Shown in pieces: positions 1,630 through 8,167 of a DNA stretch of 24,969 nucleotides. Position 1 is the first letter of the stretch, and every line of letters starts with the position of its first letter. Source of the stretch: a virus; the IMG/VR virus record IMGVR_UViG_3300033064_000451, positions 1-24,969 of that record; one strand, given 5' to 3'. A model generated the notes under the pieces. The model searched no databases, was not told the DNA's origin, and saw only the letters and a list, made by a program, of their open reading frames with translations. Position numbers and translations under genes: made by a program.

Positions 1630-2588
1630 CCAGTAGCGCAGCGCAGTGGGAGAACGCCGAGATCCCGCGCGACCGGTGGGGTCGCCCGATGGTCCTGCCC
1701 GCCAAGGGCACCAAGCGGGTCAGTTACCAAAGGACCACGACCTTTGTGAAGTGCCTAGATGACCAGACCGGAATCATGAAGTGGAAGATGCGCCTAGTGG
1801 CCGCAGGCATGGGCCAGCGCAAGGATCTCGTCCTGGCCGCCGCTGCCGCCGACCCGACCGACAAGAAGAAGAACCTCGAGATCGCCGAAAGCGCGTTTGA
1901 GCACGCCAACGGGACAGGTGGCGATGCGGCAAAGGTTGGCACCGCCATGCACGCATTCACCGAGCGCATTGACCGCGGCGCGCCGCTGGGAGTAATTCCG
2001 CAGGAGTACCAGGCCGACATCGAGGCATACCGCGCGGCGACTGAGCCGATGGAGTTCACCGCCATCGAGACGTTCCGCGTGCATGACGACTGGAAGGTGG
2101 CTGGCACCGCCGACCGCATCGGAAAGCTCAAGGGCCGCACCATGATCGTCGACATCAAGACCGGGTCCATTGATTACCCGCACGCGATGTCCATGCAACT
2201 CGCCATGTACGCGCGCAGCCTGCCGTATGACATCGCGACCGACAAGCGTGCAACCGACGCCGAACCAGTCGACCTGAACCGCGGGATCATCATCCACCTA
2301 CCCGCCGGGCAAGGGCGCTGCGACATCTACGAGATCGACATCAGCAAGGGCTGGGGCGCGTGCCTGATCGCGAAGCAGGTCTGGGACTGGCGGGGCCGCA
2401 AGGGACTCACGACATTGATCGACCCGACCGCCCCGATCCCGGTGCCGGCCACCTGGGAGTCGCTGATCCTCAACGCCCAGAACGTCGACCGGCTGCGCGA
2501 GATCTGGCGCAGGGCCTCCGAACTGGGTCAGCTGACGCCCGAGCTGAAGGCCGCGGCGAAGCTGCGCAGCGAGGAGTTGGGGGAGTGA
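1626..2588 (+). CDS. PD-(D/E)XK nuclease, Cas4/RecB-like exonuclease
   Basis: A 320-residue protein beginning MTSSAAQWENAEIPRDRWG at ATG 1626 (ATGA overlap). It carries the signature of the Cas4/RecB/lambda-exonuclease nuclease superfamily: a histidine in GTAMHAFTE (H109), the metal-binding Asp in VAGTADRIG (D163), the D-x-K core in IVDIKTG (D176, K178), and the QxxxY motif QLAMY (191-195). Such phage proteins process DNA ends during replication and recombination. I see no C-terminal cysteine cluster like that of true Cas4, and there is no CRISPR locus, so a replication/recombination role is more likely than spacer acquisition. It lies upstream of the SSB-like and primase-helicase genes. Confidence 0.85.
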   Translation: MTSSAAQWENAEIPRDRWGRPMVLPAKGTKRVSYQRTTTFVKCLDDQTGIMKWKMRLVAAGMGQRKDLVLAAAAADPTDKKKNLEIAESAFEHANGTGGDAAKVGTAMHAFTERIDRGAPLGVIPQEYQADIEAYRAATEPMEFTAIETFRVHDDWKVAGTADRIGKLKGRTMIVDIKTGSIDYPHAMSMQLAMYARSLPYDIATDKRATDAEPVDLNRGIIIHLPAGQGRCDIYEIDISKGWGACLIAKQVWDWRGRKGLTTLIDPTAPIPVPATWESLILNAQNVDRLREIWRRASELGQLTPELKAAAKLRSEELGE

Positions 2589-3511
2589 CTACGAAGTTGC
2601 CGATATTGCAACTGATGCGGCGATATCCAGAAATGCTTAACAACCTAGATCTGAATAAAACGTTGGACAAAAGTGCGTCGACACTTTTTACGGAAGTGCT
2701 TAGCGGGAGCTCCACCTACTTTGACATTGAAGTAGCCGCAGATATTTACAATGAAAGGCGTGATAAGCCAGGGATAATTAAGATGCCATACGACTCAATG
2801 TGGTTTGAGTTCCCGGCGCCAATCGACCTCAGTTACTGGTTTGATCTTGCCAGCGATGACAATGGACCAATTCTAGGTTTCGGTGATGTTGGTTGCGTGG
2901 CATTACGAATTAACACTTCCCAATTCGGAGAAGATATTGAGGGCGACCGAATCGGATTCATATTTGCATTGAGCGTCAACACCGGAATAGCTTTCCCACC
3001 TTTGGCAATCTGTTCCGAATATGACGCCGATGGACAGTACATTGAAGCTCGGTATATTGACCTTGACGGCAAAGGTGTAAATGAAGATGCCATTGCTTTT
3101 ATGGATCACCTGGCAGGACCAGTATTTACCGCTTTGTCTTTAATTAATTGCCGAAATGTGCAGACCGAAGAATCGGGAAAAATAGGGCTATCGCGCAGCG
3201 GGGCCGAGAAGCGACGGAAGACCCCAGCCAAGTTTATTCGCTATCACACGATCATTCTTCCTGGCGGAGGTTCGGTATCAGACGGTAAGGGCGGCCATCG
3301 CGCCACTGCCCTACATAAAGTCCGCGGCCACTTCAAGACCTTTACTGCTGAGCGACCGCTACTTGGCCGGCACGTTGGGACTTATTGGTGGGGCTGGCAA
3401 GTGCGCGGAAATCCCGACAACGGCGTCGTTATCAGCGACTACCAACTGAAGCAACCCGGCAGCGGGGCTCCGCTGCGCCAGTTAGTCAAAGAGAAAGCGA
3501 GTAGCAAATGA
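2585..3511 (+). CDS. Unknown protein of low GC, probable recent insertion
   Basis: A 308-residue protein from GTG 2585 (GTGA overlap) to TGA 3509-3511, which overlaps the ATG of the SSB gene. Base composition breaks from its neighbours: two 60-base samples I counted (2641-2700 and 2881-2940) are about 42-43% GC, against about 68% for 2521-2580 just upstream. The C-terminal part has a conserved-looking block at about 243-275 (LHKVRGHFKTF, then GTYWWGWQVRG), of a His-x-Val-Arg-Gly-His type I associate with phage and plasmid hypothetical proteins. A FTALSLINCRNV segment lies at about 181-192. There is no signal peptide or membrane segment. It could be a regulatory, counter-defence or host-takeover gene. 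Function is not assignable from sequence. Confidence 0.75.
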   Translation: MTTKLPILQLMRRYPEMLNNLDLNKTLDKSASTLFTEVLSGSSTYFDIEVAADIYNERRDKPGIIKMPYDSMWFEFPAPIDLSYWFDLASDDNGPILGFGDVGCVALRINTSQFGEDIEGDRIGFIFALSVNTGIAFPPLAICSEYDADGQYIEARYIDLDGKGVNEDAIAFMDHLAGPVFTALSLINCRNVQTEESGKIGLSRSGAEKRRKTPAKFIRYHTIILPGGGSVSDGKGGHRATALHKVRGHFKTFTAERPLLGRHVGTYWWGWQVRGNPDNGVVISDYQLKQPGSGAPLRQLVKEKASSK

Positions 3512-4100: not shown

Positions 4101-4708
4101 CTCATCTACTTACATTTGATGAAGCCCGGAGGGAAATCGGAATCACTCCTTCCGCATTGATCAGCGCGATCGAACGTGGGGATCTGACTCAGGTCAACCT
4201 AGAAGGAGTGCGAGGATCTACGCGGAAATATGTAACCGCAAAGTCGCTTGATTTATGGATGAACCGCATGAATGGTCAGGACGACCTACTTGATCCGCCG
4301 ATATCGCAACAGTGCTCACCTCAGACTCAGGTATCCGCTCTGGGATTTTTTATTAAGGAACTGTCGGAAAAGGTTGATATGGCTATTGGCCGTATGGACA
4401 ACCGCCAAGAGCGCGACCGGCGAACACGTTTGCGGCACACCGTTTCTTCTAGGATTGGCGATTCGTTCGATCCGCACGGCTATTACGTCTACCTGCTATG
4501 GGGTGATGACGAAAGCACTCCGATATACATCGGTCAGTCACGCAATGTTCTGAGTCGACTTGGCAGCCATATGCAGAACTCCGAAAAGCGATACTCAGTC
4601 AGATCGGTTCAGCTGATCAAATGCAGCGGCCAGGCAACGATGAACCGCACCGAGTCCGCCCTAATTCGGGAATACAAACCACCAATGAACATTGTCGGGA
4701 CTAAATGA
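4097..4708 (+). CDS. GIY-YIG endonuclease with N-terminal HTH-like domain
   Basis: A 203-residue protein from GTG 4097 (GTGA overlap). The C-terminal half is a GIY-YIG nuclease: YVYLL (130-134) and YIG (144-146) form the two name motifs, followed by arginines R149/R154, H158, and the catalytic-type glutamate in NRTESALI (E186), then KPPMN. The N-terminal about 55 residues (LTFDEARREIGITPSALISA, later RKYVTAKSLDLWM) look like an excisionase/MerR-type winged HTH, with a charged linker at 85-120. It could be a free-standing homing endonuclease, a nuclease against competitor or host DNA, or a repair enzyme. GC is low (about 40% in 4321-4380, counted), so it is probably a recent insert between the SSB and primase genes. 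Confidence 0.85.
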   Translation: MTHLLTFDEARREIGITPSALISAIERGDLTQVNLEGVRGSTRKYVTAKSLDLWMNRMNGQDDLLDPPISQQCSPQTQVSALGFFIKELSEKVDMAIGRMDNRQERDRRTRLRHTVSSRIGDSFDPHGYYVYLLWGDDESTPIYIGQSRNVLSRLGSHMQNSEKRYSVRSVQLIKCSGQATMNRTESALIREYKPPMNIVGTK

Positions 4709-6918
4709 CGCTCTGCATCCCCGCCGACATCAACGAGGCCGACACGCTCGGCGCCGCCCTGGCCTACGCCGCCGCCGGCTGGTACGTCCTGCCCGTCAGG
4801 ACTGACACCAAACACCCGGGGAGTGTTGTCGGGGCCGGCTGGCCGTCGATGTCGAGTCGGGATCCGAAGACGATCGCGGGATGGTTCGCCGGGGCCGATC
4901 ACGGTATCGCGTTGCACTGCGGTCGGTCTGGCGCGGTCGTGCTTGATGTGGACGACTACGACAACATCCCCGACGAAGTGCTCACCGTCATCGAGACCAG
5001 CAAGTGTCCGTATCAGTCGACGCGCACCGATCAGCCCGGCCGCGGGCATTACCTGCTCGCCAACGAGACCGGCCGCAGGATCGGCAACGGGCTCGGCAAG
5101 CTCGCCTCAAGTAAGAAGTGGGGCGAGGTCCGCGGAGCCAACGGCGTCATCATCGTCGCCCCGTCGGTGCATCCCGAGGGCGGCAAGTATCACTGGGAGC
5201 GCACCGGGGCCGTCCCGCCGATACCGGACTATCTGGCCGAGGCGCTGCCCAGCTCGACCAACCCTGAGAACACTGCGACTGACGCCGAGATCGAGAAGTT
5301 CCTCGCGAGCCACACCGAAACCACCAAGCCCGAGGCGCTCACCGGGCTGACGAAAGCACTCGCCGCGAAGTTGGCCGGCGGGCACTCGTGCCATATGTCG
5401 ACCCTCGGCGTGCTGACCGACGCGATGGCCGAGTCCGCGGCAGGCTATTACGACGCCCGCACAGCCACCAGGACGCTCTACCCGCTCTACCGCGAGACAG
5501 TCACCACCGGCACATCCACCGGGCGCACACTGACGAAGACAGAGGCGAAGCACGCCTACACCGGGATCATCGCCTGGGCGATCGGCCAGGCCGACGCCAA
5601 CACCGGCAAGGCCCGCGAACGGGTCGGCGAGAAGTACCGCGACAACGTCACCGAGATCGCGCCCGAGGAGATCCTGGCCCCGGTGCCGGTCACCGCACCG
5701 TTAGAGAGCCTTGAGGGTCACTTCTGGGAGTCCCGCAAGTCACTGAAGCTGATCTATGACGCCTCGCTGTCGCAGATGTGCGCGCCGTGGGCGGTGCTGG
5801 CCTGCTGCGTGGCCCGCACCCTCGCCCTGGTTCCACCGGAGATCACCCTGCCGGATGTGATCGGGGGGCGGGGATCGCTCAATTGGTTCGCCGCGATCGT
5901 CGCCAAGTCCGGTGGCGGGAAGGGTGCGGCCAACGCCGTCGCGACGATCCTGGTTCCCGGGGACATCCACACCCGCGGCGCCGGATCCGGCGAGGGCATG
6001 CTCGAGGCGTACAACCGCCGCGACGAACCGCAGGATCATGTCACGGCCATCCTGTTCTCGGTCGACGAGGTTGACTCGCTCGCCTCGATGCAGGCCCGCT
6101 CGGGCCAGACCACGATGACCGTGATCCGCAGCGGGTTCAGCGCCGAGACTCTCGGATACTCCTACCGCGGGCGCACCAAGGAGAAGGTCGACGCCCACAC
6201 CTACCGCATGACCATGATCGTCTCGGTCCAGCCTGAGCGGTCCAGCGGGCTCTTCAGTGATTCCGGTGGCGGGACGCCACAACGATTCATGTGGTTCCCG
6301 GGCCGCGACAAGCGCATCAGGGCGGCCAGGGAGCCGTGGCCGCTGGATGCCAAAGGCCGCCAGCGCACCCTGCCGGCGGTTGACACCAACCGCATGCCGT
6401 TTGATGGCATCTCGATTCCGCCCGAGGCCGAGCTGCTGATCTGCCAGGTCCGCGAACAGTCCATGAATGGCGGCGACAACATCCTCGACGGGCATGCCGT
6501 GTTCTGCCGCGAAAAGTTCGCCTTCGCCCTGGCGCTCATGGACGGCCGCACCGCCATCGGCAGCGACGACTGGAAGCTCTCCGGGATCGCCGCCGCGGTC
6601 TCGGACTGGTGCCGCCTGCGCGCCCAGGGCGCGATGGACAACGCCCAGACCGCCTTGGCTGCTGAACGTGGCCGGCTGCGCGGTGTCGAGTTTTACGAGT
6701 CCGAGATCGCCCGGGCCGTGCTCGCCGACGATGACGTGAAGCGGATCCTGCGCTGGGCGGTCGGCAAGCTCAACGCGGCCGACGGTAAACGGATGAAGAA
6801 GCGTGAGCTGACGATCGCCGCGAGTGGACGCGATCGGTCGAAGCTGACCGAGTCCATGCTGCGCGGCGTCGAGGCCGGGTTACTGATCGCCGACGAGGCC
6901 GAGTGGGTGCTCATATGA
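4705..6918 (+). CDS. Bifunctional DNA primase-polymerase/helicase
   Basis: A 737-residue protein from ATG 4705 (ATGA overlap). The N-terminal domain (about 15-185) is of the archaeo-eukaryotic primase (prim-pol) type: GAALAYAAAGWYVLPV opens it, the catalytic acidic motif is VVLDVDDYD (D81-D84), the GRGHYLL region (112-118) supplies the conserved His, and GEVRGANGVIIVAPSVHP (140-157) closes the active site. After a helical linker comes an ATPase domain with Walker A AKSGGGKG (400-407) and Walker B AILFSVDEVD (448-457). The C-terminus (about 650-737) has a winged-helix look. It would synthesise primers and unwind DNA at the phage origin. The candidate origin lies directly downstream. Confidence 0.88.
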   Translation: MTLCIPADINEADTLGAALAYAAAGWYVLPVRTDTKHPGSVVGAGWPSMSSRDPKTIAGWFAGADHGIALHCGRSGAVVLDVDDYDNIPDEVLTVIETSKCPYQSTRTDQPGRGHYLLANETGRRIGNGLGKLASSKKWGEVRGANGVIIVAPSVHPEGGKYHWERTGAVPPIPDYLAEALPSSTNPENTATDAEIEKFLASHTETTKPEALTGLTKALAAKLAGGHSCHMSTLGVLTDAMAESAAGYYDARTATRTLYPLYRETVTTGTSTGRTLTKTEAKHAYTGIIAWAIGQADANTGKARERVGEKYRDNVTEIAPEEILAPVPVTAPLESLEGHFWESRKSLKLIYDASLSQMCAPWAVLACCVARTLALVPPEITLPDVIGGRGSLNWFAAIVAKSGGGKGAANAVATILVPGDIHTRGAGSGEGMLEAYNRRDEPQDHVTAILFSVDEVDSLASMQARSGQTTMTVIRSGFSAETLGYSYRGRTKEKVDAHTYRMTMIVSVQPERSSGLFSDSGGGTPQRFMWFPGRDKRIRAAREPWPLDAKGRQRTLPAVDTNRMPFDGISIPPEAELLICQVREQSMNGGDNILDGHAVFCREKFAFALALMDGRTAIGSDDWKLSGIAAAVSDWCRLRAQGAMDNAQTALAAERGRLRGVEFYESEIARAVLADDDVKRILRWAVGKLNAADGKRMKKRELTIAASGRDRSKLTESMLRGVEAGLLIADEAEWVLI

Positions 6919-7115
6919 GCAAACAAAAGGCCATGTTGGACATTTGTTGGACATGTCCAACATGCCTCTCAAGCCGACCTGGCCTTTTAATAAAAAAAAG
7001 AATAAACACCAATCGTATAAACCCTGCTCAAAGCATTGAGAGAGAAAGACCCATGTTGGACATGTCCAACAAATGTCCAACATCGGCCAGCAAACACCGA
7101 AGGGCAACGATATGA
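6915..7115 (+). CDS. Small ORF spanning the candidate origin
   Basis: A 66-codon ORF with 4-base ATGA overlaps on both sides: its ATG overlaps the primase stop, and its TGA (7113-7115) overlaps the resolvase-like ATG. The peptide starts MSKQKAMLDICWTCPTC and, because of the inverted repeats, has a second related motif MLDMSNKCPT near residue 47. The middle (LLIKKRINTNR) comes from AT-rich DNA. The peptide sequence looks dictated by the DNA repeats and not by protein function. It may be translated mainly to keep ribosomes coupled, or not at all, since the next gene has its own Shine-Dalgarno. No function proposed. Confidence 0.35.
   Translation: MSKQKAMLDICWTCPTCLSSRPGLLIKKRINTNRINPAQSIERERPMLDMSNKCPTSASKHRRATI
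6933..6964 (+). repeat. Left arm of 32-bp inverted repeat
   Basis: It contains TGTTGGACA at 6935-6943, a two-base gap, then the palindrome TGTTGGACATGTCCAACA at 6946-6963 (flanks AT...G). It is the exact reverse complement of 7052-7083. The arm can fold on itself as well as pair with its partner. Confidence 0.9.
7052..7083 (-). repeat. Right arm of 32-bp inverted repeat
   Basis: It contains the palindrome TGTTGGACATGTCCAACA at 7053-7070 or shifted by one, then AA, then TGTCCAACA. It is the exact reverse complement of 6933-6964. Just outside both arms lies GGCC (6929-6932 and 7085-7088), offset by one base. Confidence 0.9.
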
Positions 7116-7471
7116 CCCGCTCGCGAGCATCCGCCAAGGCCGCCGGTTCAACCTTCGAGCGCATCATCGCCGACTGGCTCGCCGAGCACCTGGACGACCG
7201 GATCGACCGCAGGGTCAAGACCGGCGCGAAGGACAAGGGCGACATCGGCGGCATTCGGCTCAAGGGCCACCGGGTCGTCGTCGAGTGCAAGAACCACGCC
7301 CGTACCGATCTGGCCGGCTGGATCGCCGAGGCTCAGATCCAGGCCGACAACGATGGCGCACCGATCGGCGTGGTCGTCCACAAGCGGCACAACGTCGCCA
7401 AGCCCGAACGGCAATGGGTCACCATGACGCTCGCCGACTTCGCCTGGCTGATCCGCGAGGCCAACGCATGA
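7112..7471 (+). CDS. PD-(D/E)XK nuclease, Holliday junction resolvase-like
   Basis: A 119-residue protein from ATG 7112, with AGGG at 7101-7104 as its own ribosome site as well as an ATGA overlap. The core is that of small archaeal-type resolvases and related nucleases: a basic N-terminus, GSTFERIIADWL (E16), GAKDKGDIGGI (D44), VVVECKN (E58, K60), then a helix with Q75 (AGWIAEAQIQAD). The length is typical for such stand-alone enzymes. It would resolve branched DNA made during replication or recombination, before packaging. Its place beside the primase-helicase and candidate origin fits. Exact substrate specificity is inferred. Confidence 0.8.
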   Translation: MTRSRASAKAAGSTFERIIADWLAEHLDDRIDRRVKTGAKDKGDIGGIRLKGHRVVVECKNHARTDLAGWIAEAQIQADNDGAPIGVVVHKRHNVAKPERQWVTMTLADFAWLIREANA

Positions 7472-7662: not shown

Positions 7663-7868
7663 CCGAGGGCGAATGGGTGACTACTAACGACATTGCGATC
7701 GTCCAGCGGGCGATCCACGAGGGAATCATTGACGCGTGGCGTTATGGCATCGGGGCGGCAATCCGAACGATCCAGCAGTACCGGGGGCAGAGCGTCGACG
7801 TCGAAACCTTCGACAAAGTCATCGACGATTTACGCCGGCAGTCGGCAGATGCGGAGAACGAACGGTGA
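7659..7868 (+). CDS. Hypothetical protein, 69 aa
   Basis: ATG 7659 overlaps the previous stop by four bases, and the TGA (7866-7868) overlaps the GTG of the WhiB gene. The protein is mostly helical (IVQRAIHEGIIDAWRYGIG, then DKVIDDLRRQSADAEN). No family is recognised. Placement directly before whiB with coupling suggests co-expression. Confidence 0.6.
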   Translation: MTEGEWVTTNDIAIVQRAIHEGIIDAWRYGIGAAIRTIQQYRGQSVDVETFDKVIDDLRRQSADAENER

Positions 7869-8167
7869 GCGGTAAAGCTGGGCGTCGGCTCAGAATCGAG
7901 ATAGCGCCAACCGGATGGCAGGACCGGGCCGCGTGCACCGAACGCACCGACCTCACTTGGTTCCCCGACACTCAGGGGACTAGCAGGTCGCAGATGGCCG
8001 CGATCGAGGTATGCCGCGCTTGTCCGGTCGAGCTGGACTGCCTGCGTTACGCCGTGGCCAATGGTGAGAACTACGGCATCTGGGGCGGCATGACCTCGGA
8101 TCAGCGCACAAATCTGCGCCGAGACCGCCGCCGGTACGCCGCGCTGAACCTCGAGGAGCCCGCATGA
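7865..8167 (+). CDS. whiB: WhiB-family iron-sulfur transcriptional regulator
   Basis: A 100-residue protein from GTG 7865 (GTGA overlap). It has the four invariant cysteines of WhiB-like proteins: C24 (RAACTERTD), C50 and C53 in VCRACPV, and C59 in LDCLRYA, which hold a [4Fe-4S] cluster. It also has the glycine-rich turn YGIWGGMT (70-77) and a basic C-terminal tail (NLRRDRRRYAAL) for DNA contact. WhiB proteins act with the primary sigma factor of actinobacteria, and phage copies (for example TM4 WhiB) can affect host division and superinfection exclusion. This family restricts the host to Actinobacteria. Likely role: redirecting host or phage transcription. Confidence 0.93.
   Translation: MSGKAGRRLRIEIAPTGWQDRAACTERTDLTWFPDTQGTSRSQMAAIEVCRACPVELDCLRYAVANGENYGIWGGMTSDQRTNLRRDRRRYAALNLEEPA

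Follow-up and report, generated by a model that had tools for sequence, protein, structure and literature searches.

Known origins beside initiator helicase genes

The origins of SaPIs contain iterons arranged around an AT-rich region, and the initiator helicases of SaPI and SCCmec elements are MCM-like. Furthermore, the initiator helicases SaPI Rep and SCCmec Cch2 recognise short iterons that lie directly downstream of their own genes, which SaPI Rep does via its C-terminal domain (PMC7581432). In pRN1, the ORF904 protein combines a prim-pol, a helicase that has been called SF3, and a C-terminal winged helix; the pRN1 origin, described as a stem-loop without iterons, is located directly 3′ of this gene and works when moved (PMC4234260). 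As cited in PMC4234260, the alpha protein of phage P4 is a primase-helicase with a Toprim-type primase, whose winged helix binds repeats at the origin. For the Cluster O mycobacteriophages, PMC4351075 reports a 39-nt AT-rich element that is flanked by repeats in the left-hand divergent gap and calls it a plausible origin.

The window analysed here, i.e. the whole stretch of 24,969 bases, is a virus sequence with a gene content typical of tailed phages. Like the SaPI-type origins, a repeat element in this window is located directly downstream of a predicted initiator helicase gene and has multiple short iterons around an AT-rich region, while the C-terminal specificity of the SaPI type would be mirrored in the covariation of the iterons with a C-terminal wHTH. 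The likeness to SaPI Rep is seen in the layout and in the MCM-like fold, as judged with Foldseek. Unlike in SaPI and SCCmec, prim-pol and helicase are fused in one protein, the iterons are grouped into two palindrome-containing clusters that mirror each other, and the elements are carried, in Actinomycetota, by tailed phages and prophages. The likeness to ORF904 is partial, since prim-pol, helicase and C-terminal winged helix are united in one protein in both cases, whereas six iterons in two clusters take the place of the single large stem-loop of pRN1. With P4 the likeness is also partial: a primase-helicase with a winged helix and repeats at the origin is a shared trait, but here the primase is an AEP prim-pol and not of the Toprim type, and the AAA+ fold is MCM-like. 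We propose, with a probability of roughly 0.87, that positions 6919–7111 constitute the replication origin of this phage, which would be bound by the C-terminal wHTH of the adjacent prim-pol in a manner resembling SaPI Rep and its ori. An iteron origin beside its initiator gene is already known; what is new here is the residue-base pattern described below.

Layout of the repeat element

The segment at 6933–6964 (ATGTTGGACATTTGTTGGACATGTCCAACATG) is the exact reverse complement of that at 7052–7083. Both 32-bp copies contain the palindrome TGTTGGACATGTCCAACA, located at 6945–6962 and 7054–7071, plus one extra 9-mer, and six 9-mers TGTTGGACA are present in all. The features are as follows.

4705–6918, plus strand: predicted initiator gene, 737 aa, with an AEP prim-pol (residues 18–175), an MCM-like AAA+ helicase (about 330–660) and a C-terminal wHTH (about 696–737), from Pfam, PHROG, AlphaFold and Foldseek
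6790–6915, plus strand: coding sequence of the wHTH domain, with residues 708–723 as recognition helix, from the secondary structure of the model
6823–6837, plus strand: codons of the putative specificity motif S707-G708-R709-D710-R711 (X1-X2-X3-D-R), from residue-base covariation in 52 phages
6918–6925, plus strand: left flank box AGCAAACA, from the sequence
6934–6942, plus strand: iteron 1, TGTTGGACA, from the sequence
6945–6953, plus strand: iteron 2, left half of the first palindrome, from the sequence
6954–6962, minus strand: iteron 3, right half of the first palindrome, from the sequence
6965–7051, no strand: AT-rich core with A8, presumed unwinding element, from the overlapping lowest-GC 60-mers and comparison with relatives
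7054–7062, plus strand: iteron 4, left half of the second palindrome, from the sequence
7063–7071, minus strand: iteron 5, right half of the second palindrome, from the sequence
7074–7082, minus strand: iteron 6, from the sequence
7089–7096, plus strand: right flank box AGCAAACA, from the sequence
7112–7471, plus strand: RusA-like Holliday junction resolvase or PDDEXK nuclease, next gene downstream, from phrog_244 (E 3.8e-32)

The element fills the intergenic gap at 6919–7111, with the prim-pol stop codon (6916–6918) on one side and an ATG at 7112 on the other, and the array has a AGCAAACA box on either side. No 60-mers in the window have a lower GC content than those starting at 6984–6988 (0.30, compared to 0.637 for the whole window), and these overlap the 87-bp spacer, which itself has a GC content of 0.40. 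Both the inverted copies with their six 9-mers and the AT-rich spacer with its A8 run had been pointed out in the preliminary description, and both were recovered exactly. No further match to TGTTGGACATGTCCAACA was found in the 24,969 bases when up to three mismatches were allowed, with 0.04 matches expected from shuffling, and a comparison of the element's DNA with INPHARED phages revealed no similarity. The GC skew of the window displayed no clear inflection. In TinyDot the cumulative skew minimum is ∼1 kb from the array, which is a single weak case, and the skew of Catdawg was uninformative.

Two short boxes were noted in the relatives. AGCAAA occurs close after the stop codon of the gene in 31 of 97 relatives, which is counted as evidence for the left AGCAAACA flank box of the window, and a CGCGAG/ACGAG-like box lies, by raw count, within the origin region of 51/97.

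The adjacent prim-pol/helicase protein

In Pfam, the 737-aa protein matched Prim-Pol (E 3.5e-25) and DUF3987 (E 3.3e-7), and its PHROG assignment is DNA polymerase/primase. Residues 326–737 were modelled by AlphaFold with a pLDDT of 94.4 and a pTM of 0.88, and MCM helicases were the best among the matches listed when this model was compared with the PDB using Foldseek. A sequence search of the PDB with the single protein gave no match, while a profile search gave weak wHTH matches only, to RPA32 and Mcm4. The modelled wHTH runs in the order strand, helix 699–705, helix 708–723 and two-strand wing, which places X2 (residue 708) at the first position of the recognition helix. R709 and R711 are conserved in more than 90%. 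According to the annotations, a resolvase or endonuclease gene is frequently the next one after the origin in relatives, as it is here.

The array in relatives

Relatives were drawn from viral contigs, bacterial genomes and annotated phages. The closest one (L003, protein 74% identical) has the identical layout, but all six of its 9-mers are TGTCGGCCA, a concerted change that would be expected if a single protein reads all six copies. An exact search of viral contigs for the 18-mer yielded L030 and L031, besides two chance matches in coding sequence (L029 and L032).

Arrays were first detected as 8-mers repeated in both orientations, within a span of 400 bp and then of 350 bp with a minimum extent of 80 bp. 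With the stricter 350-bp version, an array was present between −100 and +400 of the gene's stop codon in 72/152 loci, as compared to 7 arrays in 1479 kb elsewhere, which is ∼200-fold fewer per kb. Since inspection by eye showed that the 8-mer version missed arrays, a looser 7-mer detector combined with a shuffle test was adopted. This detected an array in 97 of the 120 genes with a wHTH tail and in 1 of the 33 with another C-terminus (Fisher 5e-17), where 97/120 comes from the loosest of three detector versions and the figure of 72/152 from the strictest. The wHTH type was defined by a protein end 80–120 residues past the conserved helicase motif, the 120-aa cut having been set after the binned counts were seen. 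Held-out loci were scored with the 7-mer rule, which asks for four or more copies and for both orientations, and with the same 120-aa limit, the shuffle test being left off; they gave 32/42 versus 0/37 (Fisher 1e-13). As these counts treat related sequences as independent, the Fisher p-values are too small; the contrast is nonetheless large and was repeated in the held-out loci. The detector reported no array in 23 of the 120 wHTH-tailed relatives, in some of which an array is visible by eye or displaced.

The core was AT-richer than its own locus in 95 of the 97 relatives with an array, and the net orientation of the two clusters was mirror-image in 68, balanced in 19 and the same in 10. Larva, which has only the N-terminal prim-pol in common and a separate helicase gene, carries no such array beside the gene. 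Catdawg, in which the C-terminal half is in common, has an array in a divergent intergenic gap, and so do Corndog-type phages. This Catdawg gap is the left-hand one that holds the Cluster O AT-rich element; in the passages of PMC4351075 on that element it is not tied to the prim-pol or to other phage groups.

The iteron sequence varies strongly among phages and is uniform inside each of them, as exemplified by TGTTGGACA, GGTGTCAGC, GGTGGAGGC and CCTGGAAA. In total, 445 iteron 9-mers lie within arrays and 15 outside them in 942 kb, where 13.9 would be expected from composition. The preliminary description had taken a palindrome scattered over many promoters as the mark of an operator; the outside copies are at chance level, and the multi-promoter copies expected of a regulatory operator were not found.

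Of 397 genomes sampled within one Mycobacterium genus group, 108 had the gene, as compared to 6 of 397 sampled phylum-wide, and two distant relatives of it were found among plasmids. Proteins with longer, different C-termini (L139, L154, L166 and others) have no array 3′ of their gene. In L005 and L010, the gap that follows the gene contains G-rich repeats, which may be an iteron set overlooked by the detector, and a second cluster of TTGGAC-like repeats in L030 (4509–4594), apparently in a repetitive coding stretch, is probably due to chance.

Covariation of the iterons with the wHTH

In one run of partial Mantel tests over 98 phages with arrays, iteron distance followed the wHTH when the helicase was controlled for (r = 0.30, p = 0.002), whereas it did not follow the helicase when the wHTH was controlled for (r = 0.05, p = 0.18). 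We regard the association of iterons and wHTH across phages as well supported by these comparisons.

Within the X1-X2-[RK]-D-R family of 52 phages, particular residues were paired with particular iteron bases. GTACA accompanied Y, H or K at X2 in 5/5 cases, as compared to 1/47 others, GGCCA accompanied T at X1 in 3/3 (1/49 others), and an A at the eighth base accompanied K at X3 in 3/4 (0/48 others). Fisher values ranged from 2e-6 to 2e-4, uncorrected for relatedness. The X1 = T rule is based on three lineages and the X2 = Y/H/K rule on five; the X3 = K cases come down to two lineages, L039 and L041 being close sisters, and L110 would add a third under a shifted register. K at X2 was pooled with Y and H only after L227 had been seen. 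L225 is an exception to the X1 rule, having GGCCA despite X1 = S, and phages with A at X2 are mixed (GGACA in L117, GTACA in L268). The iterons were registered with a tool that favours a GGACA core, Catdawg being added manually and seven held-out rows registered by hand, while L098, L104, L111 and L163 were omitted from the table for an ambiguous motif or iteron register. For the common class with S at X2, GGAC was observed as predicted in the held-out L222, L250, L274 and L219 and not in L225; L223 had no array beside the gene. As the held-out set contained no case of X1 = T, X2 = Y/H or X3 = K, these rules derive entirely from the discovery loci. We hypothesize that residues 707–709, where the recognition helix begins, read particular iteron bases. 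The individual rules are held at this level because of the exceptions mentioned and because they were spotted by eye and then counted largely on the same loci.

Two sister prophages of M. abscessus, L043 and L013, were compared codon by codon. Among 330 helicase codons they show 24 synonymous changes and a single nonsynonymous one, and among 67 wHTH codons 19 synonymous and 20 nonsynonymous changes; codon counts for L036 and L039, which were out of frame, are left aside. The DNA identity of L043 and L013 declines from 0.97 to 0.71 in the wHTH and 0.53 in the left iterons, and is back at 0.99 beyond. This pair suggests that wHTH and origin were exchanged or diversified together.

Alternative explanations

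The palindromes resemble dimer operators and the element sits between genes of one transcription unit, which would suit an autoregulatory operator through which a DNA-binding protein of the phage, the prim-pol or some other, controls transcription of the surrounding genes and not replication. We regard this as unlikely, given that the element lies 3′ of the initiator gene and not in its promoter, that a sigma-70 consensus scan (which covers sites of the sigma-70 type only) gave no promoter-like site, and that copies elsewhere do not exceed chance. Moreover, an operator would not need a conserved AT-rich core with mirror clusters on its two sides, and the iterons covary with the helicase protein's own wHTH. 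It is very unlikely that the element is an origin whose iterons are bound by a different protein, such as the product of 459–1301 (phrog_1590), even though this product has HTH domains. The iterons covary with the prim-pol wHTH after control for the helicase, as well as with residues of its recognition helix, and L043 and L013 have nearly the same helicase but different wHTHs and iterons. The preliminary description had named either the prim-pol/helicase or an HTH protein near 462 as the reader of the 9-mer; the covariation, being in the prim-pol's own C-terminus, favours the former and lends no support to the latter.

That the palindromes fold as RNA stems at the gene end, as a transcription terminator or as hairpins ending the prim-pol mRNA, is hardly credible: a scan found no terminator-like site, the single non-palindromic iterons of L003 changed together with the palindromic ones, the element lies apart from the gene in Corndog-type phages, and the link with the wHTH would be left unexplained. 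Packaging (cos/pac) or attachment sites are generally known to reside in intergenic gaps of phage genomes; here, however, the terminase genes begin ∼3 kb away and the presence of the element tracks the C-terminus of the prim-pol, which makes such a site just as hard to credit.

Proposed function of the candidate origin

At the level of sequence, the computations support where the element lies, that it is conserved and restricted to this one location, and that iterons and wHTH covary. The origin put forward in the preliminary description gains further weight from the presence of the array 3′ of genes with a wHTH tail, its absence with another C-terminus, and the AT-rich core. If the element is an origin, the 9-mers would be bound by protomers of the neighbouring prim-pol/MCM-like helicase via the C-terminal wHTH, in which residues 707–711, where the recognition helix starts, would read the GGACA half of TGTTGGACA. 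The mirror-image clusters would then load helicase complexes on both sides of the 87-bp AT-rich core, presumably as two rings, and after melting of this core the N-terminal prim-pol domain could prime synthesis for bidirectional forks.

More tentatively, and at slightly short of even odds in our judgement, the part of the prim-pol gene that encodes the wHTH could be exchangeable together with the neighbouring origin, as a single specificity cassette on which diversifying selection acts. This would keep related prophages in one host from firing each other's origins, and residues 707–709 would represent a largely readable residue-to-base code for origin recognition. A large group of phages and prophages from actinobacteria gains a predicted origin and its predicted reader. 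The natural residue-base variants would make initiator-origin specificity, compatibility of co-resident prophages and the recognition rules of wHTH domains testable with existing phages.

Two further observations concern other parts of the window. A gene for a WhiB-like transcription factor is located at 7736–8167, downstream of the candidate origin, and the GC content dips to 0.516 at 2501–3500 across a phrog_20769 gene, the listed start of which overlaps the exonuclease gene at 1509–2588.
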